Source: Bacteroidaceae bacterium
GTDB taxonomy: Bacteria > Bacteroidota > Bacteroidia > Bacteroidales > Bacteroidaceae
NCBI GenBank assembly: GCA_017557005.1
Contig: JAFZFZ010000020.1
Span: 1 to 64,000 of the forward strand
DNA length: 64,000 nucleotides
Direction: 5' to 3'
Part shown: positions 32,415 to 59,820 of the stretch, in pieces
Numbering within the stretch: the stretch's first letter is position 1
Layout: each line of letters opens with the position of its first letter
Notes under the pieces: generated by a model
The model's database searches: none
Seen by the model: only the letters and a program-made list of their open reading frames with translations
Told to the model about the DNA's origin: nothing
Program-made: the position numbers and the translations under genes

Positions 32415-32813
32415 ATGAGTAACAGGAAATTAGAGGAGTTAAGGATTTGGAACGATGCCAGGAAGCTTGTAAAAGAGATATACCTTCTTATGAAGGATAA
32501 TCGAGACTATGGTTTCAAGGACCAGATACAGCGCGCAACAATTTCCATCATGAACAATATTGCAGAAGGATCCGAATACCATTCCGATCCAGTTTTTATA
32601 AGATATCTGAACATAGCCAAAGGAAGCTGCGCTGAAGTCAAAAGCATGCTATATCTATGCGAAGATCTCGGTTATTGCGACAAAGCCAACCGAGAAAGAC
32701 TACACAAACAGCTACACAGCCTCACAAGCGGCATATACAAGATGATAGAATATTTAAACTCCCCCAAGAAAGAACCAACAGCACCCGCCGACAAAAATCC
32801 CGTTGACCGTTGA
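32415..32813 (+). CDS. Four-helix-bundle protein (23S rRNA intervening-sequence/S23 family)
   Basis: A 132-residue all-helical protein with the family signatures KLEELRIWNDARKLVKEIY, FKDQIQRATISIMNNIAEG and the late RLHKQLHSLTSGIYKMIEYL. Relatives are coded in intervening sequences of 23S rRNA genes, and structural cousins (Avd) serve diversity-generating retroelements; no reverse transcriptase is seen here. The gene sits alone between fabD and the amylase, flanked by inverted 7-bp arrays. Its last codons (NPVDR) and stop are inside the right array, which suggests a movable cassette. Confidence 0.9.
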   Translation: MSNRKLEELRIWNDARKLVKEIYLLMKDNRDYGFKDQIQRATISIMNNIAEGSEYHSDPVFIRYLNIAKGSCAEVKSMLYLCEDLGYCDKANRERLHKQLHSLTSGIYKMIEYLNSPKKEPTAPADKNPVDR

Positions 32814-32857
32814 CTGTTGACCGTTGACCGTTGACTGTTGACCGTTGACCGTTGACT
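32802..32857. repeat. Right 7-bp repeat array flanking the four-helix-bundle gene
   Basis: Eight GTTGACC/GTTGACT units in perfect 7-bp register. The TGA stop of the four-helix gene (32811-32813) is within it. Confidence 0.93.
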
Positions 32858-41277: not shown

Positions 41278-42735
41278 CTACGCGTGTCCCATTCTCCAAA
41301 ATAAATGCCACACCTTGAACAGCGGACTCCACAGCACCTCCGACGGATAGCTCCGCACAAACCGGAAGTTACGTATCACCTTACGCAGCCCCCAACGGAA
41401 AGTCCCCTCCCCTTCTGCACGCTGCATACGCTCATCGTACTTACCGAAGTTACCCGCCAGCATAATCTCATCCAGCAGGAAGCGCCCCTCCTTCGCATCA
41501 GGCGAAGTAAGGAGATATCGATCCGGCAAGCCATACACCTCCTGCAGCACCCACATCACCGCCCGTGTGAAGCGCATCATACCCAGTGAGCGCAACGTAC
41601 GTAGCGTCTCCTCACGTTCCACCTCTGTGAAGCCCTGCTGCAGCACGAAGTAATAGTCCAGCAACTGCTTCAACCCGATACCCTCTGCAAACAGATGACG
41701 ATATATATGCACCAGGATATATATGCGGTTGAATGCGTTGTTCGGAGTGGGAAGCGTTGCTTGTTTAGTGTTGAGTGTTGAGTGTTTAGTGTCACCATCC
41801 GGCAGGAACTGTTGACTGTTGTCTGTTGTCTGTTGATTATAGACTGTTGAACTGAAGAATCGCTGCAAGCGGTGGTTCTTTAGCGGACTATTCATCCACG
41901 TCGGCGTGAAATGCACCTCGATGCTCACATCGCTTACCACAGGAAAATCCACATGATGATACACCGGCTTGCAGTCCGGCACACACCTACGCACATACTT
42001 CAATATCGCACTACGCTCCCCATGCAACCAGATATCGATATCTCCCGGAGTACGATAATTACTTATCGAGCTACGCTCTACTTGTTTAGAATCTAAACAA
42101 GTGTCAACAGTCAACGGTCTACGGTCAACGGTCCCATCCGGATGGCCACACGCGAGCGAAGCAATGCGTGCATTCTGTGAATTCGTGTCTAATTCGCGTT
42201 GACAAATATTCTCCGCGTTGCAAGAAAATTCTGTGTCTTCTGTGAGTTCTGTGTGAGATATTTGAGAACATCCCGGATGGCCAGAGTCCCCTCTCTCTCT
42301 GGAGCCGACGCGATGTGAAAGCGTCGGTTGCTCCGACTGCCGGTTTATCGGCACCAAGGAGTCTTTCGTAGAAAGTTTACTAGGGTGAGGCCCGTCTTCG
42401 TAATTGCTAAGTTGATACAACTTTGCAATTCCTTGCCCCTTCAGCACCACACCCGGGAACCCCTCTTCGAGGAACTTATTCGCCACCGCCAACGTCTTCC
42501 GATCCATCTCCTCGTTGAGCGCCTTGATGCGCTCCGTCGCCATGTACCATTGCATCAGCATGACACGCTGTGGCCTCTGCTCCACAGGCAGCTTCTCCAC
42601 ACCACGGAAGGCAATGCCCACCATCGCCTGCTTCTGCGCCAGGGCATAAAGCTCCCTCCACTCCTCCGCTGTAGGAGTGTGCGACAGCTGCGACCGATTC
42701 CCAATCGCTATTTGTAGAAGTTCAAAGAATAACAT
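41278..42735 (-). CDS. Nucleotidyltransferase-family protein with two large repeat-derived inserts
   Basis: 485 residues of the NTP_transf_5-type family. The core blocks are GVVLKGQGIAKLY (95-108), RTPGDIDIWLHG (228-239, catalytic Asp pair) and NRIYILVHIYRHLF. Typical proteins run about 330-370. The excess is an insert of about 119 residues (109-227), directly between the substrate loop and the GDIDIW strand, and a second of about 35 (295-330). Both are coded by mosaic repeats (GTTGACT, TCTGTGAATTC, CCGGATGGCCA words). The frame stays open and the family motifs survive, so it is probably still made. It is the last gene of cluster II; substrate unknown. Confidence 0.82.
   Translation of the reverse strand: MLFFELLQIAIGNRSQLSHTPTAEEWRELYALAQKQAMVGIAFRGVEKLPVEQRPQRVMLMQWYMATERIKALNEEMDRKTLAVANKFLEEGFPGVVLKGQGIAKLYQLSNYEDGPHPSKLSTKDSLVPINRQSEQPTLSHRVGSRERGDSGHPGCSQISHTELTEDTEFSCNAENICQRELDTNSQNARIASLACGHPDGTVDRRPLTVDTCLDSKQVERSSISNYRTPGDIDIWLHGERSAILKYVRRCVPDCKPVYHHVDFPVVSDVSIEVHFTPTWMNSPLKNHRLQRFFSSTVYNQQTTDNSQQFLPDGDTKHSTLNTKQATLPTPNNAFNRIYILVHIYRHLFAEGIGLKQLLDYYFVLQQGFTEVEREETLRTLRSLGMMRFTRAVMWVLQEVYGLPDRYLLTSPDAKEGRFLLDEIMLAGNFGKYDERMQRAEGEGTFRWGLRKVIRNFRFVRSYPSEVLWSPLFKVWHLFWRMGHA
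41750..41855. repeat. In-frame mosaic insert 2 in the nucleotidyltransferase gene
   Basis: Tandem GTGTTGAGTGTTGAGTGTTTAGTG and GTTGTCTGTTGTCTGTTGA words separated by CATCCGGCAGG. It codes about 35 extra residues ahead of the FNRIYILVHIYRHLF block. Confidence 0.82.
42060..42400. repeat. In-frame mosaic insert 1 in the nucleotidyltransferase gene
   Basis: Contains GTCAACGGTCTACGGTCAACGG (7-bp class), CATCCGGATGGCC, GCGAAGCAATGCGTGCATTCTGTGAATTCG words, TTCTGTGTCTTCTGTGAG, and a palindromic CGACGC...GCGTCG near 42310-42325. It codes residues of about 109-227. Confidence 0.85.
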
Positions 42736-42743
42736 ATTTTATA

Positions 42744-42861
42744 GCAGCTTAGCTGCGGTGAAAGAAGCTGCGCTTCGGTTAAAGCACTCTGTGCGGTTAA
42801 AGTTGCTTTGCAACGGTGAAAGCTGCTGCGCAACGGTTAAAGTCGCGAAGCGACGGTTAAA
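42744..42861. repeat. Micro-hairpin array, six units, 20-bp period
   Basis: Six consecutive units of hairpin plus linker: GCAGC-TTA-GCTGC, GAAGC-TGC-GCTTC, GCAC-TCT-GTGC, GTTGC-TTT-GCAAC, GCTGC-TGC-GCAAC (one mismatch) and GTCGC-GAA-GCGAC, each followed by GGTGAAA or GGTTAAA. Starts are at 42744, 42764, 42784, 42802, 42822 and 42842. Stems differ while pairing is kept. A 7-bp AGCCAAT/AGCCAAC run follows at about 42861-42893. Confidence 0.95.
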
Positions 42862-42935
42862 AGCCAATAGCCAACAGCCAAGAGCCAATAGCTAAAGAAC
42901 TCACACAGAAATCACAGAAATCACAGAAAATTATA

Positions 42936-43211
42936 TCAAAACAAGTCTGAGTGAGAACCAGTACGCACCAATGTAACAATTTTCACTGTTACATCACGAC
43001 TATAGATCAATAGCCAATCTGGGGAAATATGACATTCTCGAAAACCCTTGTAATTACCAGTGAGAGAATGGTCACGATTCTTCTTAGGCAACTCAGCGCC
43101 CGAAATAAGTTTCAGGATCACTGCATTTAACTTTGTCTCATCGAGCCCTCTCTTACGAGCCAACTTCAAGTCCTTAAGATACTGATGAGTAAGTTCTAAT
43201 TCGAACATCAC
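42936..43211 (-). CDS. YafQ-family type II toxin (mRNA interferase)
   Basis: A 91-residue RelE-superfamily protein matching YafQ: start FELELTHQYLKDLKLARKRG, GAELPKKNRDHSLTGNYKGFRECHISPDWLLIYSRD and a C-terminal LVRTGSHSDLF with the conserved His. It is predicted to cut mRNA on the ribosome and to be neutralised by the upstream partner. It overlaps the antitoxin by four bases. The pair sits inside the mosaic repeat region, like the other small cassettes here. Confidence 0.92.
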   Translation of the reverse strand: MMFELELTHQYLKDLKLARKRGLDETKLNAVILKLISGAELPKKNRDHSLTGNYKGFRECHISPDWLLIYSRDVTVKIVTLVRTGSHSDLF

Positions 43212-43417
43212 TTCACGGCATTAAGATATTCTTCAAAATTACTGCACTTAATCGTCTTACCCTTCTTTGCCTCATTCATAGCCTTTAGGGTAGTCTTATT
43301 AGGCACAGCTTCATCTGTTCTCTCCACAATAGAACCAACACCGCGCAACATCGTGATGGCACGTTTCAATTCGGCCAACAAACTAACATCTTCAACGTTT
43401 ACAATCAGCTGTGTCAT
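43208..43417 (-). CDS. Antitoxin partner of the YafQ-like toxin
   Basis: A 69-residue protein starting at ATG 43417 (MTQLIVNVEDVSLLAELKRAI), ending EEYLNAVK, four-base overlap with the toxin start. An N-terminal beta-helix DNA-binding segment and a basic/helical C-terminal toxin-wrapping segment are plausible from the layout. It is small, precedes the toxin and is co-transcribed, as type II antitoxins are. The exact family is not recognised. Confidence 0.8.
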   Translation of the reverse strand: MTQLIVNVEDVSLLAELKRAITMLRGVGSIVERTDEAVPNKTTLKAMNEAKKGKTIKCSNFEEYLNAVK

Positions 43418-43429
43418 AATAGTATGCAA

Positions 43430-44188
43430 TAAAATTTACAAATCTTCTCCATGCAAAGGTATACAATATCTTCTAAACCACCAACAAATCCACAAAGTTT
43501 AAGAATTCCTAGTATTTTCCTGTTCGCGAAAGCTCCACGATGTAGTTTGGTAAGACTCGCCGCCCAGCGTGACGACTTTGAACACCCCGAATGGCAGTCA
43601 TCGTTAACGTTATTGTCAACGTTATTGTCATCGTTATCGTTGTAACAAAGTTGCTCTCACCCGGCAGGCCAGCACAAGCGAAGCACGTGCGTAGATTCGT
43701 TAGATTCGTGTGATTAGTGTTCAAGAAAAAACACTCATGCACCTTTAATTTATTTTGACCACGAATTTCACGAATTACACGAATTTAACCATCAACAGGA
43801 TTATACACGATTTCACACGATTCATACATCGCTTCCGCTCGTATGTCACCATCCGGATGGCCAGCAAGGGCGAAGCGACTTGCAAATTCTGTGAATTAAA
43901 AACCAGCGTTGAAGGAGTTAAGAATAATTCTGTGAGTTCTGTGAATTCTGTGTGAGATAATTTTGTTTAGTGTTTAGAGTTGAAAGTTTAGTGACCATCC
44001 GGAGGCAGGAAGAGACTCCTTGGGGAAGATAAACCTTCCGTCGTCGCAACCGATGCTTTCATTGCTTTTCCCATACGGCCAGCGACCTAAAGGTTCCGCA
44101 TTGGCGTCGCAACCGATGCTTTCATACCGCATCGGCGTTATCGTCTTCGTACACGCAAGCGTGTCCTTTAACCTCTAACCTTTAACCA
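43430..44188. repeat. Mosaic repeat region, about 0.75 kb, no gene
   Basis: From about 43590 the sequence is built from recurring words: CGTTATTGTCAACG/CGTTATCG runs (43600-43645), CATCCGGATGGCCAGCAAGGGCGAAGC and ACCCGGCAGGCCAGCACAAGCGAAGC, AGATTCGTTAGATTCGTGTG, CACGAATTTCACGAATTACACGAATTT, TTCTGTGAGTTCTGTGAATTCTGTGTGAGA (43930-43960), GTTTAGTGTTTAGAGTT, and CGTCGCAACCGATGCTTTCAT twice (44042-44130). No credible gene is seen; short frames are low-complexity translations of the words. Confidence 0.85.
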
Positions 44189-44346
44189 GCCGCTCTGCGG
44201 CGATTAACCAGCGACTCCGTCGCGATTAACCGCACCAAAGGTGCTTTAACCGTGCCAAAGGCACATTAACCGAAGCGAAGCTTCTTTAACCGTTGCGCAG
44301 CAACTTTCACCGCACCAAAGGTGCTTTCACCGCACACTCCGTGTGC
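44189..44346. repeat. Micro-hairpin array, eight units, reaching into the WecG-type gene
   Basis: Eight hairpins, all perfectly paired: GCCGC-TCT-GCGGC (44189), GCGAC-TCC-GTCGC (44211), GCACC-AAA-GGTGC (44232), GTGCC-AAA-GGCAC (44252), GAAGC-GAA-GCTTC (44272), GTTGC-GCA-GCAAC (44292), GCACC-AAA-GGTGC (44312) and GCACAC-TCC-GTGTGC (44332). Period is exactly 20 from the third on. On the minus strand each is followed by GGTTAAA, GGTTAAT or GGTGAAA. The last unit codes the C-terminus of the adjacent gene and its linker supplies the TGA stop. Confidence 0.96.
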
Positions 44347-45064
44347 TCTTCTCCTCCCTTATAATCCCCGGCAACGTACAGATAATCTGCTTGCAACGCG
44401 CCCACTGCTTCTTCGGCTCTGCCCAGATGCGGTACACGAATTCCAGGTGCATGCGCCGCATCCATGCCGGAGCACGCTTCTCCTCAAGTCCGCTATAGAA
44501 TTTGAAGGCCGCCCCTACGGCAATCTGCACACCCCGCTTCAGGTACGGATTCAGCTTGCTCATGAATATCTCCTGCTTCGGAGCACCCAACGCCACCCAG
44601 ATGATGTCCGGGTTATCACGGTTCACCATCTCCGCTATCGCCGAGTAGTCAAACTCCTCCACCTTGCAGAAGGGCAGTTCATAGAACGTCATGTTCTCTA
44701 TCGCCGGGTCCATCTCCACCAAGTTCTTCTTCAGCGCTGTGAGCACCTCCGTAGAGGTCCCCATGAAGAACTGTCGGTACCGACGCATCTCGATGATATC
44801 CTTGAATATCATGCTACCGCAATAATGCTCATGCTTCACCCCATAAAGCCGCTTCACAAAGATAGGCACCCAGCTGCTGTCGCAGATGGAGAACATCGCC
44901 CCATCCACCACCTCCCGGTAGCCCAGATCGTTATGCACCTGCTGCAGAATGTTGGCATCCGCCACACATATATACCCAGCCTCCGCCGTCTCCACCTGCT
45001 CCGCAATGCGCTCCTGCACCACGGCCTTATCAAACTCGTAACGTATATTGAAATATTTTTCCAT
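44327..45064 (-). CDS. WecG/TagA/CpsF family glycosyltransferase
   Basis: A 245-residue GT26-type enzyme that adds a sugar such as ManNAc or ManNAcA to a lipid-linked acceptor. Family blocks: YICVADANILQQVHND, the GTSTEV glycine loop (GxxxxV), NPDIIWVALGAPKQEIFMSK and VGAAFKFYSGLEEKRAPAWMRRMHLEFVYRI. Its C-terminal tail (EEKSTRSVR) and stop are within the hairpin array. The WecB and WecC products from cluster I could provide its donor (inference). Confidence 0.93.
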   Translation of the reverse strand: MEKYFNIRYEFDKAVVQERIAEQVETAEAGYICVADANILQQVHNDLGYREVVDGAMFSICDSSWVPIFVKRLYGVKHEHYCGSMIFKDIIEMRRYRQFFMGTSTEVLTALKKNLVEMDPAIENMTFYELPFCKVEEFDYSAIAEMVNRDNPDIIWVALGAPKQEIFMSKLNPYLKRGVQIAVGAAFKFYSGLEEKRAPAWMRRMHLEFVYRIWAEPKKQWARCKQIICTLPGIIREEKSTRSVR

Positions 45065-45380
45065 TATATATATACTTGTTTCAAGATCAACGATCTACAT
45101 GAACAATCTAAAATCATTATCTCACACAGAATTCACAGAAGACACAGACTTCCTTTAAGTGCCTTTTACTCTGAGATTTTAGAATTCACAGACCGACGCG
45201 GTATGAAAGCGTCGGATGCGACGACGGAGCCTTTAGGGTCCCAAAGGAGTACGAAGCCTTTGGCGAGTCCCACGACACTTCGCTTGTGCTCCCTCCGGCC
45301 AGATCTCCCATCCGGACAGATATTTTCCTTAGAAATTCTGTGTAACACCTAAAATAAACTTAGTTTGAGGCCTTAAAAAC
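45065..45380. repeat. Mosaic repeat region left of the GxxExxY gene
   Basis: No gene is present. Contains CTCACACAGAATTCACAG (45121-45138) and AGACACAGACTTC, an imperfect palindrome CGACGC...GCGTCG (about 45194-45214), GCCTTTAGGGTCCCAAAGG, ATCCGGACAG and TTCTGTGTAAC. Its TTCTGTG words are inverted relative to those right of the GxxExxY gene. Confidence 0.82.
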
Positions 45381-45764
45381 TCACCCATTAATCACCCGCT
45401 TCACACCTGCCATCAAGTCGTTAACATTAAAGTTAATTAACAAACCCAGATGACAATTGGTAAGTCTTAGATAGGTCTGCAACTGCTTATAATGAATAGG
45501 TTTGAGTTCTTCTACCGACTTAAGTTCCACAATTAGCTTACCATCAACCAGCAAATCTAATCTCAATCCCTCACCGATATTCATCCCTTTATAATTCAGA
45601 TTCACCTCTACCTGAGACTCTACTGGAATTCCATTTTCATTTAATTCATATACTAGAGCCTTTTCGTAAGCACTCTCTAATAACCCAGGACCCAGCGTCT
45701 TGTATACTTCCAAAGCACAACCAATCACCTTATATGACAAGTCATTCAGCGTCTTCCTATCCAT
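45381..45764 (-). CDS. GxxExxY protein (PD-(D/E)xK-like)
   Basis: A 127-residue protein named for G27-x-x-E30-x-x-Y33 (GLLESAY). A nuclease-like core is visible as D70, E80 and K82 (RLDLLVDGKLIVELKS), and the ending is LINFNVNDLMAGVKRVING. The biochemical role of the family is not established. It stands alone between WecG and a glycosyltransferase, flanked by inverted mosaic repeats, like the four-helix gene at 32415. A passenger or mobile cassette is likely. Confidence 0.9.
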   Translation of the reverse strand: MDRKTLNDLSYKVIGCALEVYKTLGPGLLESAYEKALVYELNENGIPVESQVEVNLNYKGMNIGEGLRLDLLVDGKLIVELKSVEELKPIHYKQLQTYLRLTNCHLGLLINFNVNDLMAGVKRVING

Positions 45765-46035
45765 TGTTATATAAATATTTATTTACCCACCCGGAGGCCC
45801 AGCACAAGCGAAGCGTGTGCGTATTCTGTGAATTAAAAACCAGCGTTATTGGAAAAAGCTAAAATTCTGTGAATTCTGTGAAGTCTGTGTGAGATTAAAG
45901 TATTCATCCCGGAGGCCACACGCGAGCGAAGCAATGCGTGCATTCTGTGTGAGACTTAAAATTCTGTGTGAAACAAAAAAGAATATCAGTGTGAGATCCC
46001 TAATAATCTCCGTGTGAACCCAAGACATCCCGTTA
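45765..46035. repeat. Mosaic repeat region right of the GxxExxY gene
   Basis: ACCCGGAGGCCCAGCACAAG, GCGAAGCGTGTGCG, TTCTGTGAATTCTGTGAAGTCTGTGTGAGA (45865-45894), CATCCCGGAGGCCACACGC, GCGAAGCAATGCGTGCATTCTGTGTGAGA and repeated CTGTGTGA words. No gene. Confidence 0.83.
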
Positions 46036-47406
46036 TCACCCGTTCCCAACGATCCCCTTCAGCAACCCCGTGAACCGCATCTCAAACACCTCCAGCGTCA
46101 TCCTCTCCCGATACAACTCATACCCCCGCTGCCCCATGGCCACCCGCATCTGCGGCTCAGCGATGAGCTTGCGCAGCGCCTCGGCCAGCGCCTGCACATC
46201 CCGTTGCGGACATACGAATCCGTTGACCCCATCCGTCACGATGTCAGGTATCGCCCCCACATCGGTAGATACGATCGGTAAGCGATATTGCATCGCCTCC
46301 ACCAGCGTCAAGGGGAAGCAGTCGTCAGAGGTTGGTTGCACGAATATATCCGCTTCGCGGAAGAAGCGATCCTTCGCAGCCCCATACTGCGGTCCGTGAT
46401 AAGTAACGCAGTCGGTAAGCCCCCGCTCCGCTATCGCACTGCGGAACGCCTCTCCCGATATCAACTTGCTCTCACCCCCCACATAATCGCACTGAAACAC
46501 TATCCCCTCCTCCTTCAGCATGCGGCACGCCTCCAGCAACACATAAATACCCTTACTCTCGATGAGGTTAGAGAGGAACAACAAACGAGGAACCGAAGGT
46601 TCCAACGATGACGATAACGATGACGAAAACTGGGCTTCGCGATGTCTACCCATCCCGGAGGCCAGCAAGGGCGAAGCGACTTGCAAATTCTGTGAATTCT
46701 CATCCAGAGTACTTTGCTTGTCCTGTGAGACTATATTTTTCTGTGTATTCTGTGATTTCTGTGTGAGACCAAAGCCCTCATCCGGATGGCCAGCACAAGC
46801 CTGCGTGTGCGTTAACGCGTCTAAATTCGTGTGTTTATCGTGTTGATTAAATAAACCATCAGTTGATAATTGACTGTTGTCCGTTGTCTGTTGACCGTTG
46901 TCCAACGGTGGAACACCGTTTGCGCACACCACCACCTGCTCCCGCTTCACCACAGCCGATATATCCTCATACAAATGCCACGACAGCAACATCACCGTCG
47001 TGTTACGATACACTAGCGGCATCAGCCAGCGGTAGGGCCAGCGATTCACGTCGCGCGACATTCCCTTGTTATGCTGGTGCAACACCACCTTACGGCCGAA
47101 CAACTTGCATAGTAGCACGAAGGGAGCATCCTTCAGGAACCCCATGCCATGGCATGTGATGGCCAGGTAGCATAGCGAGTAGCGGTGCGTGATGAGCTTC
47201 CATAGCACCTCAAAGTACGCAGCCACAAACCGGAACAGTTTCTTTATACCCCCCTTCCCTATCTCCTCCATCGTGCGCGATGTCGATAGGTTCACGAAGT
47301 CACAGTCGAAGCTCTCCTGTATCAGTGTACTCTCCTTGATATATTTGCTCACCATCGACGAGCCATGCACGGGTGGTGGAAGAGGAGCGATAAAAAGAAT
47401 TTTCAT
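46036..47406 (-). CDS. GT4 glycosyltransferase with a ~104-residue repeat-derived interdomain insert
   Basis: A GT-B retaining glycosyltransferase, 456 residues against a usual 350. The N-domain starts KILFIAPLPPPVHGSSMVS and ends VVCANGVPP (about 158-167). The C-domain resumes at PRLLFLSNLIESKG (about 273) and carries the donor motif FVQPTSDDCFPLTLVEAM (E-x7-E type). Between them residues 168-271 are low-complexity sequence (TNLDALTHTQACAGHPDEG, SQNTQKNIVSQDKQ) coded by mosaic repeats at 46590-46905. Both domains are intact and the frame is open, so activity is plausible. It acts in cluster II; sugar unknown. Confidence 0.88.
   Translation of the reverse strand: MKILFIAPLPPPVHGSSMVSKYIKESTLIQESFDCDFVNLSTSRTMEEIGKGGIKKLFRFVAAYFEVLWKLITHRYSLCYLAITCHGMGFLKDAPFVLLCKLFGRKVVLHQHNKGMSRDVNRWPYRWLMPLVYRNTTVMLLSWHLYEDISAVVKREQVVVCANGVPPLDNGQQTTDNSQLSTDGLFNQHDKHTNLDALTHTQACAGHPDEGFGLTQKSQNTQKNIVSQDKQSTLDENSQNLQVASPLLASGMGRHREAQFSSSLSSSLEPSVPRLLFLSNLIESKGIYVLLEACRMLKEEGIVFQCDYVGGESKLISGEAFRSAIAERGLTDCVTYHGPQYGAAKDRFFREADIFVQPTSDDCFPLTLVEAMQYRLPIVSTDVGAIPDIVTDGVNGFVCPQRDVQALAEALRKLIAEPQMRVAMGQRGYELYRERMTLEVFEMRFTGLLKGIVGNG
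46590..46905. repeat. In-frame mosaic insert in a GT4 gene
   Basis: Contains CCAACGATGACGATAACGATGACG, CATCCCGGAGGCCAGCAAGG, TGCAAATTCTGTGAATTCTC, TCTGTGTATTCTGTGATTTC, CATCCGGATGGCCAGCACAAG, GCGTCTAAATTCGTGTG and GTTGTCCGTTGTCTGTTGACC. Nearly every word recurs in other mosaics of the window. Confidence 0.88.
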
Positions 47407-49883: not shown

Positions 49884-51311
49884 CTAATCTCTCCTAAATA
49901 TATCACGACTATAAACCTTATCATGTACGTCATCAAGAACACTATCGTAGCGATTGGCTATAATAGCACGTGAGAGGCGCTTGAACTCGGCAAGGTCGTT
50001 GACCACGCTGCTACCAAAGAAGAGGGTGCTATCGGGTAACGAGGGCTCGTAGATGATGACCTCGGCGCCCTTGGCCTTGATACGCTTCATGACGCCCTGG
50101 ATGGAGCTGTGACGGAAGTTGTCCGAATTGGATTTCATGGTGAGGCGATACACTCCTACAACCGGTGGGGTGTTGAACGTTGAACGTTGAACGTTGAACG
50201 AAGATGTGTATTGATTATTCTCTGTATAGCTGTACCAGCCAGCGAGGCGGAGTACCTGGTCGGCAATGAAATCCTTGCGGGTGCGGTTACTCTCCACGAT
50301 AGCAGTCATCATATTCTGTGGTACATCCTCATAGTTCGCCAATAGTTGCTTGGTATCTTTAGGCAAACAATACCCACCATATCCAAACGACGGGTTATTA
50401 TAATGATCTCCTATTCGTGGGTCGAGACCTATACCACGAATGATTGCTGCAGAATCCAAACCCTTGACCTCCGCGTAGGTGTCAAGTTCATTAAAGTAGC
50501 TTACACGTAAGGCCAAATAGGTATTGGCAAATAATTTGACAGCCTCAGCCTCCTTGAGTCCCATGAACAACAAAGGAATGCCTTTGTTGTTGGCCGTTGG
50601 CTGTTGGCTGTTGACTGTTAACTGTTCGCTATTGGTTGTAGACTGTAGACTGTTGACATTAGACACGGCATTGCCGACTGCTCCTTCCACAAGGAGGCGG
50701 GCAAAGGCATGGGCAGCATCCTCTAGATGATTGCCCGCTATCTGCTTGATAGCCTTGTTTTCCTCATCAAATTGTTCTATCATCTTGGGATATCCCACGA
50801 TGATACGTGATGGATAGAGATTATCATATAGAGCTTTACTTTCACGCAAAAACTCTGGAGAGAATAGCAAGCGGAGTTTACGAGTAGCATCATATCCACG
50901 CTCCTTGAATAATCGAGCATACTTTACGTAAAGGCTACGGCAATACCCTACAGGGATGGTGCTCTTAATGACCATCGTTGCCTCTGAGCCGCAGTTGAGA
51001 ACAGCATCTATCACATTTTCCACTGCAGAGGTATCGAAGAAGTTCTTCTGGCTATCATAATTGGTAGGCGCTGCAATGATAATAAAGTCTGCATCTCTAT
51101 AGGCTGCTTCCGCATCCAGAGTAGCCACGAGATTGAGTTCCTTCTCTGCAAAGAATTTCTCAATATACTCATCCTGTATGGGCGACACACGACGATTTAT
51201 CATATCCACCTTTTCGGGAATGATATCTACTGCCACCACCTCATTATGCTGTGCCAATAGAGTGGCCATACTAAGCCCTACATACCCTGTTCCTGTAACT
51301 GCTATTTTCAT
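49884..51311 (-). CDS. UDP-glucose 6-dehydrogenase-type nucleotide sugar dehydrogenase with two repeat-derived inserts
   Basis: Converts a UDP-hexose to the uronic acid with NAD. It has the Rossmann motif [10 protein letters not shown] (7-16), [14 protein letters not shown], and catalytic Cys315 in [12 protein letters not shown], with C-terminal YEPSLPD and SRDIFRRD. At 475 residues it exceeds the short-type enzyme (about 390-400). Two inserts explain the excess: residues about 211-244 ([20 protein letters not shown]), ahead of the dimerisation helix, and about 361-382 (between the core and the VVGVYRL strand of the UDP-binding domain). Core motifs are intact, and it supplies UDP-glucuronate or a relative to cluster II. 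Confidence 0.92.
50172..50203. repeat. In-frame mosaic insert 2 in the UDP-sugar dehydrogenase gene
   Basis: GTTGAACGTTGAACGTTGAACGTTGAACG run (8-bp period), coding the FNVQRSTFN stretch. Confidence 0.87.
50580..50665. repeat. In-frame mosaic insert 1 in the UDP-sugar dehydrogenase gene
   Basis: GTTGTTGGCCGTTGGCTGTTGGCTGTTGACTGTTAACTG and GTTGTAGACTGTAGACTGTTGACA form a 7-bp-period run in the GTTGACT/GTTGGCT class. Confidence 0.88.
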
Positions 51312-54324: not shown

Positions 54325-54430
54325 TTGGGGTGCTATCAGCAGTCAGCTATGAGAGGTCAGCTATGAGAGGTCAGCTGCTCAAAGCTCATCGCTCATTCCT
54401 CAATGCTCAAAGCCCATTGCTCACTGCTCA
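54325..54430. repeat. Tandem short-repeat run eroding the 3' end of the SGNH-like gene
   Basis: AGTCAGCTATGAGAGGTCAGCTATGAGAGGTCAGCTG, then GCTCAAAGCTCATCGCTCATTCCTCAATGCTCAAAGCCCATTGCTCACTGCTCAA, with about 8-bp spacing. The last codons of the gene (ALSSEQWALSIEE) and its stop at 54393 are inside it. Confidence 0.85.
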
Positions 54431-55325
54431 AGGCTATCCAGCTCTTCACCTTCTCCGTAATCAGCGGACTGATGACCTGCTGGCCTTGTACGTTCAGGTG
54501 TATGCGGTCAAAGAAGAGTTCGTGACGTGATGCATATTCGGGATTGAAGTCCCAGTACTCGATGAGCGGTTGCTCATCTGCATAGTGCTGAAACCAGTCC
54601 ACCACCATCTGGTAGCAATCCGGCTCGTAGTTGTTGACAAGGTCCAGCGTGGGGGTATTCACCAATGCCACCTTGATGCCGCGGGATGTCAGCATATCCA
54701 TCGTCTCGCGGAACTCGGCTATCAGTTCCTCATTCATCTCTATATGGCGCTCGCCACCCTCTGCCAGTTGCTTCTTGTATGCCTCTATATCTATAGCACC
54801 ACTCTTCATGTTGCTCCAGTTATGCAGCCACCCACGTGCAGCACCATTCTTCATAGCATCGTCGCTATAGCGTGTGGTGCGCACCAGCTTATGCAGCCAG
54901 TAGTCCTGTGCGCTACCCTGCTCACGGATGTAACGTCCTATCTTCGCATCATCCATGAAGGGATAGAACAGCTTGTATGAGTTAGCACTGAGCCCTTCAC
55001 CGGTGAAGGTGCAGAGGTCCACTCCATACAGCACCACCTTCAGCGAGTCGCCATATCCCGAATCGAGGAACTGCTGTATCATCACCTTGCGGTCCGACAC
55101 GTTCACTCCCTCACGCGTATACTTCGACACTTTCATCCCCAGATCATCCTCCATCTGCTGTTTATCGGTGGCCAACATCAAGTGCGAGTGGCCTACAAGC
55201 AGCACATCAGCATACTGGTTCAGTCCATACATTTCGTCCACTCCATGCTTCATTATGCGTTCTACGGCAAAGTCACATGCGAAGAATATTATAATAATCA
55301 GTAATATTCCCTTTATCCTTTTCAT
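54393..55325 (-). CDS. SGNH/DltD-like protein partnered with the second MBOAT
   Basis: About 310 residues with an N-terminal membrane segment (ILLIIIIFFACDFAV) and a periplasmic SGNH-like domain: LLVGHSHLML (block I-like, Ser in GHS) and DRIHLNVQGQQ (Asp-x-x-His, block V). I chose ATG 55325 because the segment upstream lies in repeats. Its C-terminus is built of repeat sequence. The MBOAT gene lies 164 bases upstream, as for the pair at 47433/48434. Probable role: O-acylation of the polysaccharide. Confidence 0.78.
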   Translation of the reverse strand: MKRIKGILLIIIIFFACDFAVERIMKHGVDEMYGLNQYADVLLVGHSHLMLATDKQQMEDDLGMKVSKYTREGVNVSDRKVMIQQFLDSGYGDSLKVVLYGVDLCTFTGEGLSANSYKLFYPFMDDAKIGRYIREQGSAQDYWLHKLVRTTRYSDDAMKNGAARGWLHNWSNMKSGAIDIEAYKKQLAEGGERHIEMNEELIAEFRETMDMLTSRGIKVALVNTPTLDLVNNYEPDCYQMVVDWFQHYADEQPLIEYWDFNPEYASRHELFFDRIHLNVQGQQVISPLITEKVKSWIALSSEQWALSIEE

Positions 55326-58256: not shown

Positions 58257-58300
58257 AATTATATCAATTTCTTATATAAATCATTCAATATGTTATGAAA

Positions 58301-58380
58301 GCGCTTATAGCGCGGTTAAAGAAACTTTGCTTCGGTAAAAGTTGCGGAGCAACGGTGAAAATGCCTCTGGCATGGTTAAA
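58301..58380. repeat. Micro-hairpin array, four units, exact 20-bp period
   Basis: GCGCT-TAT-AGCGC (58301), GAAAC-TTT-GCTTC (58321, one mismatch), GTTGC-GGA-GCAAC (58341) and ATGCC-TCT-GGCAT (58361), each followed by GGTTAAA, GGTAAAA or GGTGAAA. A TAACCATTAACCATTAACC 7-bp run (58398-58420) follows, up to the next gene's 3' end. Confidence 0.94.
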
Positions 58381-58404: not shown

Positions 58405-59820
58405 TTAACCATTAACCTTTAATCGTTCATACAGATTGCAGATTGACTTCGCATATCGCTCAAAACTGTACTTCTCCACCTCACATAATGCTTGTGTGCG
58501 AAGCCTGCTATACAATTCATTATCTCCAAGCAACTCAGACACCTTTGCCGACATATCCTGCACATCCAAAGTACGATGCAGCAAGCCACATACGCCATCG
58601 CGCACCACTTCAGGCAGGCCACCCACATTGGAGGCCACCATCACGCACCCATTGGCCATGGCCTCAATGGCTGTAAGCCCAAAGCCCTCGCTACGCGAAG
58701 GCATCAGCACAATATCCATCTGGCCATACCATTGCGCCAGCTCCTCCTGTGGCTGCCGCCCCACCCATGTGATGCGGTCGGCACAGCCCAGCTCTGCCGC
58801 CTGCTGCTCCATCATAGCACGCAGCGAGCCATCGCCCACCACCAACAACCGCACCTCCGGAAACCGCTTCAGCACCTCAGCAAATGCCGGCACCACCAGG
58901 TCCATACCTTTGATGGATTCAAGGCGGCTCACAACGCCGATTGTCGAGCGGTGAGCGGTGAGCGGTGAGCGGTGAGTATAGTTTTCGTCAACGTTAGCGT
59001 TTTCGTACACGCCCTGCGTGTCCTCATCCGGCAGGGCAGCACAAGCTTGCATGTGCGTAAACGTGTCTAAATTCGTGTCTAAATCTTGTTGACAAGATAA
59101 ATTAAGGTCGATGGATGACGGTTGAGGGTTTAGTGAAGCAGCTCCGCTGCTAATTGTCAATTGTGAATTATCAATTGTGAATTGTGAATTGTTTTCGTTA
59201 ACGTTATCGTACACGCTTTGCGTGTCCTCATCCCGGAGGCTGTCAACGTCAACGTTAGCGTCAACGTTACAACGCATCTGCGCAGGCAGCGCGTTGTAAA
59301 TCGTAAAATGATTCCTCTTCCCCAGCACCGTCTCCGTGGTATAGAGCTGCGAGCTCCCGAAGAAGCTGCGCTCGGCACGCTCGGTGATGCAGGTGAAGGC
59401 ACGCAGACAATGACGCTGCAAGAAGTGTATGAGTCGCAAATCCTTGTATATGTCTGCTGCCGTGTGTGCTGTAGCGATGATGTTCCTTACACCGAGGAGC
59501 CAGAGTAGGAGGATTACCATAGCACCCGGTGCCATGTACTGCACATGTGTCACGTCGGGGCGCACCTCCTTGATGGTGCGTCGCAGATGCTTGTAGAGGT
59601 AAGGTATGGCGCGGTAACCCCCTACACGAGTGCCCTCAGGGGAGAATAGCAGCACCTTAGCACCCGCCTTGCGGTAGCGCTCCACCATGTAGGGCGTATG
59701 CTCAAAGTAGCATGCTACCGTCACCTCATGAGCGCCCTGCACTAAGGCATGCACGGTATTGAGTGTTTGTATTTCAGTTCCACCTGTCAGAAGACAGGGG
59801 ATACAGATGAAAGTTTTCAA
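58405..59820 (-). CDS. GT4 glycosyltransferase with a ~109-residue repeat-derived interdomain insert
   Basis: 471 residues where about 360 are usual. The N-domain runs from FICIPCLLTGGTEIQTLN to HFTIYNALPAQ (about 182). The C-domain begins STIGVVSRLESIKG (about 292) and ends with the donor motif MPSRSEGFGLTAIEAMANG. Residues 183-291 are low-complexity (SQFTIDNSQLTI, DTNLDTFTHMQACAALPDED), coded by mosaic repeats at about 58940-59290. The insert sits at the same structural position as in the GT4 gene at 46036, and the two inserts share recognisable peptide words. The catalytic frame is open. Confidence 0.88.
   Translation of the reverse strand: MKTFICIPCLLTGGTEIQTLNTVHALVQGAHEVTVACYFEHTPYMVERYRKAGAKVLLFSPEGTRVGGYRAIPYLYKHLRRTIKEVRPDVTHVQYMAPGAMVILLLWLLGVRNIIATAHTAADIYKDLRLIHFLQRHCLRAFTCITERAERSFFGSSQLYTTETVLGKRNHFTIYNALPAQMRCNVDANVDVDSLRDEDTQSVYDNVNENNSQFTIDNSQLTISSGAASLNPQPSSIDLNLSCQQDLDTNLDTFTHMQACAALPDEDTQGVYENANVDENYTHRSPLTAHRSTIGVVSRLESIKGMDLVVPAFAEVLKRFPEVRLLVVGDGSLRAMMEQQAAELGCADRITWVGRQPQEELAQWYGQMDIVLMPSRSEGFGLTAIEAMANGCVMVASNVGGLPEVVRDGVCGLLHRTLDVQDMSAKVSELLGDNELYSRLRTQALCEVEKYSFERYAKSICNLYERLKVNG
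58940..59290. repeat. In-frame mosaic insert in the second GT4 gene
   Basis: GAGCGGTGAGCGGTGAGCGG tandem (58948-58977), CGTTAGCGTTTTCG, hairpins ACACGC-CCT-GCGTGT (59007-59021) and ACACGC-TTT-GCGTGT (59211-59225), CATCCGGCAGGGCAGCACAAG, AATTGTCAATTGTGAATTATC runs and CGTCAACGTTAGCGTCAACG. No stop codons arise in the gene's frame. Confidence 0.9.

Follow-up and report, generated by a model that had tools for sequence, protein, structure and literature searches.

How can a row of hairpins keep each stem self-complementary while the stem sequence changes from one hairpin to the next? The question is raised by an array at positions 42744-42861 of a 64,000-nucleotide stretch of a Bacteroidaceae genome (hereafter, the window), in which the initial annotation had described six hairpins with 3-nt loops, five of them perfect and one mismatched, joined by GGTKAAA linkers. 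Direct reading confirmed both this description and the coordinates, the single mismatch being C·A. The array and its surroundings are arranged as follows.

41278-42735, reverse strand: NTP_transf_5 nucleotidyltransferase family gene flanking the array, predicted start codon 8 bases away
42744-42756, forward strand: hairpin 1, GCAGC-TTA-GCTGC, then linker GGTGAAA (42757-42763); direct reading
42764-42776, forward strand: hairpin 2, GAAGC-TGC-GCTTC, then linker GGTTAAA (42777-42783); direct reading and linker pattern search
42784-42794, forward strand: hairpin 3, GCAC-TCT-GTGC, with a 4-bp stem, then linker GGTTAAA (42795-42801); direct reading and linker pattern search
42802-42814, forward strand: hairpin 4, GTTGC-TTT-GCAAC, then linker GGTGAAA (42815-42821); direct reading and linker pattern search
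42822-42834, forward strand: hairpin 5, GCTGC-TGC-GCAAC, with one C·A mismatch, then linker GGTTAAA (42835-42841); direct reading and mismatch scan
42842-42854, forward strand: hairpin 6, GTCGC-GAA-GCGAC, then linker GGTTAAA (42855-42861); direct reading and linker pattern search
42862-42892, forward strand: degenerate heptamer array AGCCAAN adjoining the hairpins, the last composite member before a nonamer run; Tandem Repeats Finder
42936-43211, reverse strand: YafQ-type toxin gene of a type II toxin-antitoxin pair on the other flank, predicted antitoxin partner at 43208-43429

The units are spaced by 20, 20, 18, 20 and 20, the spacing of 18 being due to the 4-bp stem of hairpin 3. Because the stems differ, Tandem Repeats Finder detects the array in part only, with 77% matches. 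Hairpin 6 includes GCGAAGC, a very stable DNA mini-hairpin. The toxin-antitoxin pair formed by the YafQ-type gene and its predicted partner (42936-43429) directly adjoins the array.

Beyond what the initial annotation had noticed, arrays of this kind occur throughout the genome and the genus, and a second one lies within the window itself. The window also holds a third, partly decayed array.

About 44168-44346, reverse strand: second array, eight hairpins with GGTGAA/GGTTAA linkers; pattern search and reading
58290-58380, forward strand: third array, partly decayed, with GCGC-TTAT-GCGC, GAAAC/GCTTC with an A·C mismatch, GTTGC and ATGCC; pattern search

The frame of a WecG-family gene (44327-45064, reverse strand) ends in the first unit of the second array, where a linker provides its TGA stop. 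Several short repeats are combined in the intergenic spacers of this genome: heptamers GGTTAAN, AGCCAAN and GTTGACN, hexamers AACGAT and nonamers CACAGAAAT; the linker is also found without hairpins, as runs of GGTTAAN heptamers, and isolated micro-hairpins also adjoin AACGAT runs. Tandem Repeats Finder reports some 89 tandem-repeat rows in the window, hexamer and nonamer arrays included, and degenerate heptamer arrays of many kinds (GTTGACN, TGTTGGC, TGCTCAA, AATTGTN) are seen, for example, at 32800-32857, 50588-50655, 54376-54435 and 59152-59192.

A pattern defined by the linkers only (GGTKAAN{10,18}GGTKAA, pairing not required) has 206 matches in the 2.58-Mb genome versus 9 for the reversed pattern, and the window's 145-kb contig carries most of the matches listed. 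Perfectly paired stems of 4 bp or longer occur in 82 of 100 listed inserts versus 4.7 after insert shuffling, although 7 of these 82 are not hairpins but 'TTAA' artefacts from heptamer runs made of linker only; with the minimum raised to 5 bp, the counts are 70 and 0.6. The hairpins thus lie far beyond chance expectation. Of 18 genus-mates, 7 contain matches to a strict pattern, against none of 42 genomes of other genera, and a larger draw of 282 family genomes from outside the genus yielded a single chance match, a non-palindromic one. When 84,980 species plus viral contigs were scanned with GGTTAAAG-N11-CGGTTAA, all five of five pairs were formed, among the matches listed, in 11 of 11 matches from the genus, in 0 of 109 prokaryote matches outside it and in 0 of 27 viral matches. 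A linker-blind scan of 16 further genomes (8 genus-mates and 8 other family members, mostly 20-40 kb each) revealed no comparable array. The named records that carry arrays are Bacteroidaceae MAGs from the gut of cattle, sheep, goat and water deer; among the genomes tested, the arrays are restricted to one genus of uncultured herbivore-gut Bacteroidaceae. A phage or plasmid origin was rejected: neither the 50,697 phage records nor the 72,556 plasmid records searched contained a match, and the viral contigs yielded chance matches only, without five-of-five pairing.

The units follow one format. The 187 perfect linker-flanked hairpins reduce to 95 distinct stem-loops with 35 stems, of which 5-bp stems are the commonest. 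The unit spacing, mostly 18, 20, 22 or 24, tracks the stem length, both arms changing length together. In 44 distinct 26-mers, 97.7% of stem cells are paired (66.6±2.1% after shuffling and 20-64% when slid) and 75 stem cells are altered on both sides, with a covariation score of 0.798 versus 0.161±0.028 for shuffled sets; the information in these figures comes from the closing pair and the three inner pairs alone, since the outer G-C pair was fixed by the pattern that collected most of the 26-mers. In the 20-bp class (123 units), 603 of 615 cells are paired versus 360±11 with partners shuffled. The 5' arm in this class varies between units at 0.42 per site and the loop within one stem word at 0.386 per site, while the diversity of the 3' arm given the 5' arm is 0.012 per site. 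The loop-closing pair is C-G in 92 of the 95 distinct stem-loops, and GNA on either strand occupies 42 of 89 distinct 3-nt loops where column composition predicts a fraction of 0.256 (P about 1e-5). Loops of the GNA type closed by G-C pairs, C(GNA)G, form extraordinarily stable DNA mini-hairpins (PMC4686876). Hairpins with mismatches amount to 7%. Among the imperfect units, GCTCC-NNN-GTCGC and ACTCCC-NNN-GGTCGT recur, with TC at the two middle positions of both arms and hence T·C and C·T mismatches; these units are conserved across species (L047 2298-2320, L051 1203-1242, L045 2479-2500) and are exceptions to the palindrome rule.

Covariation this strong is normally taken as proof of a functional RNA. 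The arrays could accordingly be RNA elements, transcribed in 5' or 3' untranslated regions, in which pairing is selected because the hairpins stabilise mRNA or tune translation, an explanation that we hold unlikely. The arrays are mostly intergenic and often start no more than about 30 bases from a start or stop codon, and in Beggiatoaceae a role in translational regulation has been proposed for heptamer repeats immediately preceding start codons (PMC4679880). In several cases a start codon directly beside the array can be read, and in 28 of 34 cases it is the 5' end of the array (on the linker strand), not the 3' end, that is closer to a gene boundary (sign test, P 0.0002), a bias that may be partly inflated by the ORF caller since the linkers contain stop codons. 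The reverse strand of the array at 42744-42861 folds somewhat better than its shuffles (z -2.67), whereas the forward strand does not (z +0.17), long-range pairings compete with the hairpins, and none of four folds computed with energy models forms the chain of six. If RNA on the linker strand were selected, G·U should outnumber A·C substitutions by far. However, the mismatched array hairpins contain 6 G·T, 5 A·C and 3 other mismatches, a wider mismatch scan likewise reveals no excess of G·T over A·C, and just 4 of 220 cells in the 44 distinct 26-mers are wobble pairs, too few for this explanation. The orientation of the arrays relative to genes is mixed as well: both neighbours are on the opposite strand in 19 cases and on the same strand in 13, the rest being divided or at contig ends. 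An RNA gene or riboswitch as such was rejected for the lack of wobble asymmetry, for a forward-strand fold no better than shuffled and because a search of 42000-45500 against Rfam gave no match up to E 5. Taken together, the absence of wobble, the mixed orientation, the C-G closing pairs and the GNA-like loops point, indirectly, to hairpins formed by DNA and not RNA. The initial annotation had left a choice between selection on pairing and a copying mechanism that makes palindromes; as wobble pairs are rare and not asymmetric, selection on RNA is disfavoured and copying fits better.

In a hand-compiled list of 33 arrays with 197 hairpins, a few related arrays included, adjacent units share a stem just once, versus 6.3 times expected from shuffling within arrays (P 0.005) and 8.6 times from global shuffling (P 0.001). 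Ordinary tandem duplication would produce the opposite of such neighbour dissimilarity. The earlier contention that stems which differ while complementarity is kept do not reflect the decay of an ordinary tandem repeat is supported; covariation across units is extreme and neighbours are less alike than by chance.

The initial annotation had also suggested looking for paired substitutions at orthologous sites, and here the expectation was not supported. In the few homologous copies that could be aligned, about 8 changes fall in loops, 5 are single stem changes that leave a position unpaired and 2 replace a whole hairpin; linkers changed as well, and blocks were replaced. Neither a double compensatory change nor arm-to-arm copying was seen, all by small hand-made counts. 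When G004 and G002 are compared at a site with flanks 95-98% identical, the shared hairpins are identical, two linkers are altered and one unit is missing. A hairpin that seemed to be 'swapped' between two C44 arrays was discarded as an example, since flank alignment puts the start of the shared block after that hairpin. By the same small hand-made counts, loops account for 8 of the 13 point changes versus 3 of 13 sites (P 0.003), which means that stems change more slowly and loops about five times faster. Unpaired random changes in stems had been considered fatal to selection on pairing; single unpaired changes do occur, so part of this objection stands, but the stems are still about five times slower. 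It is very improbable that there is no upkeep at all, i.e., that some 35-40 perfect palindromes arose a single time as a founder set, were recently copied, are still young and show ordinary decay in the mismatched 7%. The single unpaired changes among homologous copies and the partial co-inheritance of stem and loop as 'words' are consistent with such a founder set, but the origin of 35-40 different palindromes in one format would be left unexplained, and a loop diversity of 0.386 versus a 3' arm diversity of 0.012 in hairpins of the same age requires selection or correction.

Array blocks are also gained, lost and dispersed. One block of about 110-170 bp is dispersed over several sites in G004, G012 and G013, and a five-hairpin block is common to contigs C137 and C174 of G004, with one loop base different. 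The G004:C137 array and the rest of its composite block are absent at the orthologous sites of G012, G002, G014 and G007, where the flanks are 85-92% identical. The arrays might be non-autonomous mobile palindromes that depend on a single-strand transposase acting in trans, as REPs and BIMEs depend on RAYTs, the hairpin serving as the recognition fold and the linker as a cleavage or guide motif. This is unlikely. The dispersal of short array blocks in unrelated contexts, their presence or absence at orthologous sites, and a fixed motif beside the hairpin would all follow, and palindromes are also retained in modified REPs of Stenotrophomonas BIMEs (PMC2817692). Yet the block inserted at G004:C137 combines repeats of several types and is not a clean element, the GTAG/CGTC tag is missing, and, with the stems not conserved, a transposase would have to recognize shape alone. 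A search for the Y1/RAYT domain PF01797 gave a marginal hit in G000 (22.8 bits, in part of a 369-aa frame) and none in G004 and G002, these genomes being 74-83% complete.

The reading that we prefer, tentatively and at somewhat less than an even chance, is that these are BIME-like mosaic arrays of micro-palindromes, built of 13-15 bp units and the heptamer GGTKAAN, that exist at the DNA level and are kept symmetrical by hairpin template switching. When replication exposes single-stranded DNA, each palindrome would fold as a C(GNA)G triloop hairpin of very high stability, at which the polymerase would stall and occasionally switch template to the opposite arm, by the quasipalindrome mechanism. 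One arm would then serve as the template for its partner, and a stem mutation would be either erased or made into a new perfect stem, while loops would drift freely. Recombination or slippage at the linkers, which are short and repeated, may carry blocks of units from one intergenic site to another, and deletion of identical adjacent units would leave neighbours that differ. In E. coli, template switching is known to turn imperfect inverted repeats into perfect ones, and quasipalindrome mutation is strand-biased (PMC7202029). The linker strand of the arrays shows no bias by local GC skew (17 of 33 arrays); a replication-strand orientation was rejected on this ground, and, given the strand bias of the E. 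coli process, the lack of bias speaks against template switching. The constant linker and the closeness of the 5' array end to a gene boundary are not accounted for by template switching either, and the failure of energy models to produce the chain of hairpins also counts against it.

The alternative hardest to separate from template switching is selection on the DNA hairpin, which predicts nearly the same pattern. The hairpin or cruciform would be functional, as a site of protein binding, a topoisomerase site or a barrier to transcription or replication, purifying selection would keep it self-complementary, and neighbours would differ so that units fold separately. Stems conserved relative to loops, stable C-GNA-G loops and the absence of wobble all agree with this, neighbour dissimilarity would follow from the avoidance of pairing between units, and BIMEs are known to bind gyrase and Pol I (PMC2817692). 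We nevertheless consider a functional DNA hairpin distinctly unlikely: no conserved gene context was seen, and the wholesale turnover between close species, together with absence from most of the genus (at the pattern used) and from all other genera tested, implies that no conserved role is needed. With no evidence of a host function seen, the default is that the arrays are near-neutral or selfish repeats whose presence between genes is tolerated. It is quite doubtful that a dedicated 'palindrome-writing' activity, whether of a polymerase, a reverse transcriptase or a single-stranded DNA transposase, adds new self-complementary stems between GGTTAAA heptamers; if it did, stem diversity would be generated rather than mutated, and the arrays would represent a new kind of bacterial repeat.

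How do the arrays compare with known systems? REPs are imperfect palindromes of 20-40 bp with few conserved sequences and a GTAG or CGTC tag (PMC3733652). Like REPs and BIMEs, the arrays are extragenic, high-copy mosaic clusters (about 200 linker-flanked matches in 2.58 Mb), and the BIMEs and REPs of enterobacteria, Pseudomonas and Stenotrophomonas similarly number hundreds per genome, are species-specific, have short linkers and vary between strains (PMC2817692). Unlike REPs, the array units are 13-15 bp long and perfect, with 35-40 stems, a GGTKAA linker and no GTAG/CGTC tag, and they stand head-to-tail on one strand where REPs alternate in orientation. REPs are tied to RAYT genes; no convincing RAYT was found in the incomplete genomes G000, G002 and G004. 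Membership in the RAYT/REP system was rejected on the tag, the form of the unit and its orientation, the transposase being unconvincing. The TAACTGA heptamer repeats of Beggiatoaceae, Cyanobacteria and some Bacteroidetes are, like the arrays, intergenic 7-bp repeats of patchy distribution that are often beside start codons (PMC4679880), but they consist of one fixed heptamer and are hairpin-free. Hairpin elements in the mitochondria of sponges and other organisms are also small, mobile-looking and intergenic, with conserved stems, variable loops and tandem insertion (PMC2800124); in contrast to the arrays, each family has one or a few stem sequences, they reside in organelle genomes and they lack a constant linker. 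Template switching at quasipalindromes in E. coli and yeast is known at single mutational hotspots and not as a genome-wide upkeep of repeats. In CRISPR arrays, constant repeats separate unrelated, non-palindromic spacers and cas genes are adjacent. A CRISPR array was rejected here: the inserts are themselves palindromic, 11-18 nt long, their stems recur, and the neighbours are the NTP_transf_5, YafQ and WecG genes.

The open-access literature yielded no description of such arrays, and the view that no named Bacteroidetes element has this form is borne out there as well as in Rfam and in phage and plasmid records. We place the arrays as intergenic mosaic palindromic repeats that work like BIMEs yet are not REPs, with a minority chance that they are categorically new. 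Because wobble pairs and a consistent sense strand are lacking, the arrays constitute a natural test of DNA-level mimicry of RNA covariation, and they raise the question of whether template switching on DNA, or selection on DNA hairpins, can imitate RNA covariation at genomic scale. Dozens of them occur in related gut species and offer a simple, countable system for the origin, correction and spread of palindromes and for neighbour avoidance.

Repeats of other types are also present in these genomes. In-frame stretches of the NTP_transf_5 gene (41278-42735) and of a group-1 glycosyltransferase gene (46036-47406) match intergenic repeats elsewhere in the window, for example 42135-42179 resembling 45905-45949 (95.7%) and 46642-46698 resembling 43843-43897 (93%). 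Judging from these matches, repeat blocks seem to have invaded the coding frames of both genes in a manner reminiscent of the Rickettsia palindromic elements. Other dispersed repeats of 100-190 bp (L043 6300-6420, L053 3440-3770) are present in multiple copies in nearly every genus-mate, including those without hairpin arrays.
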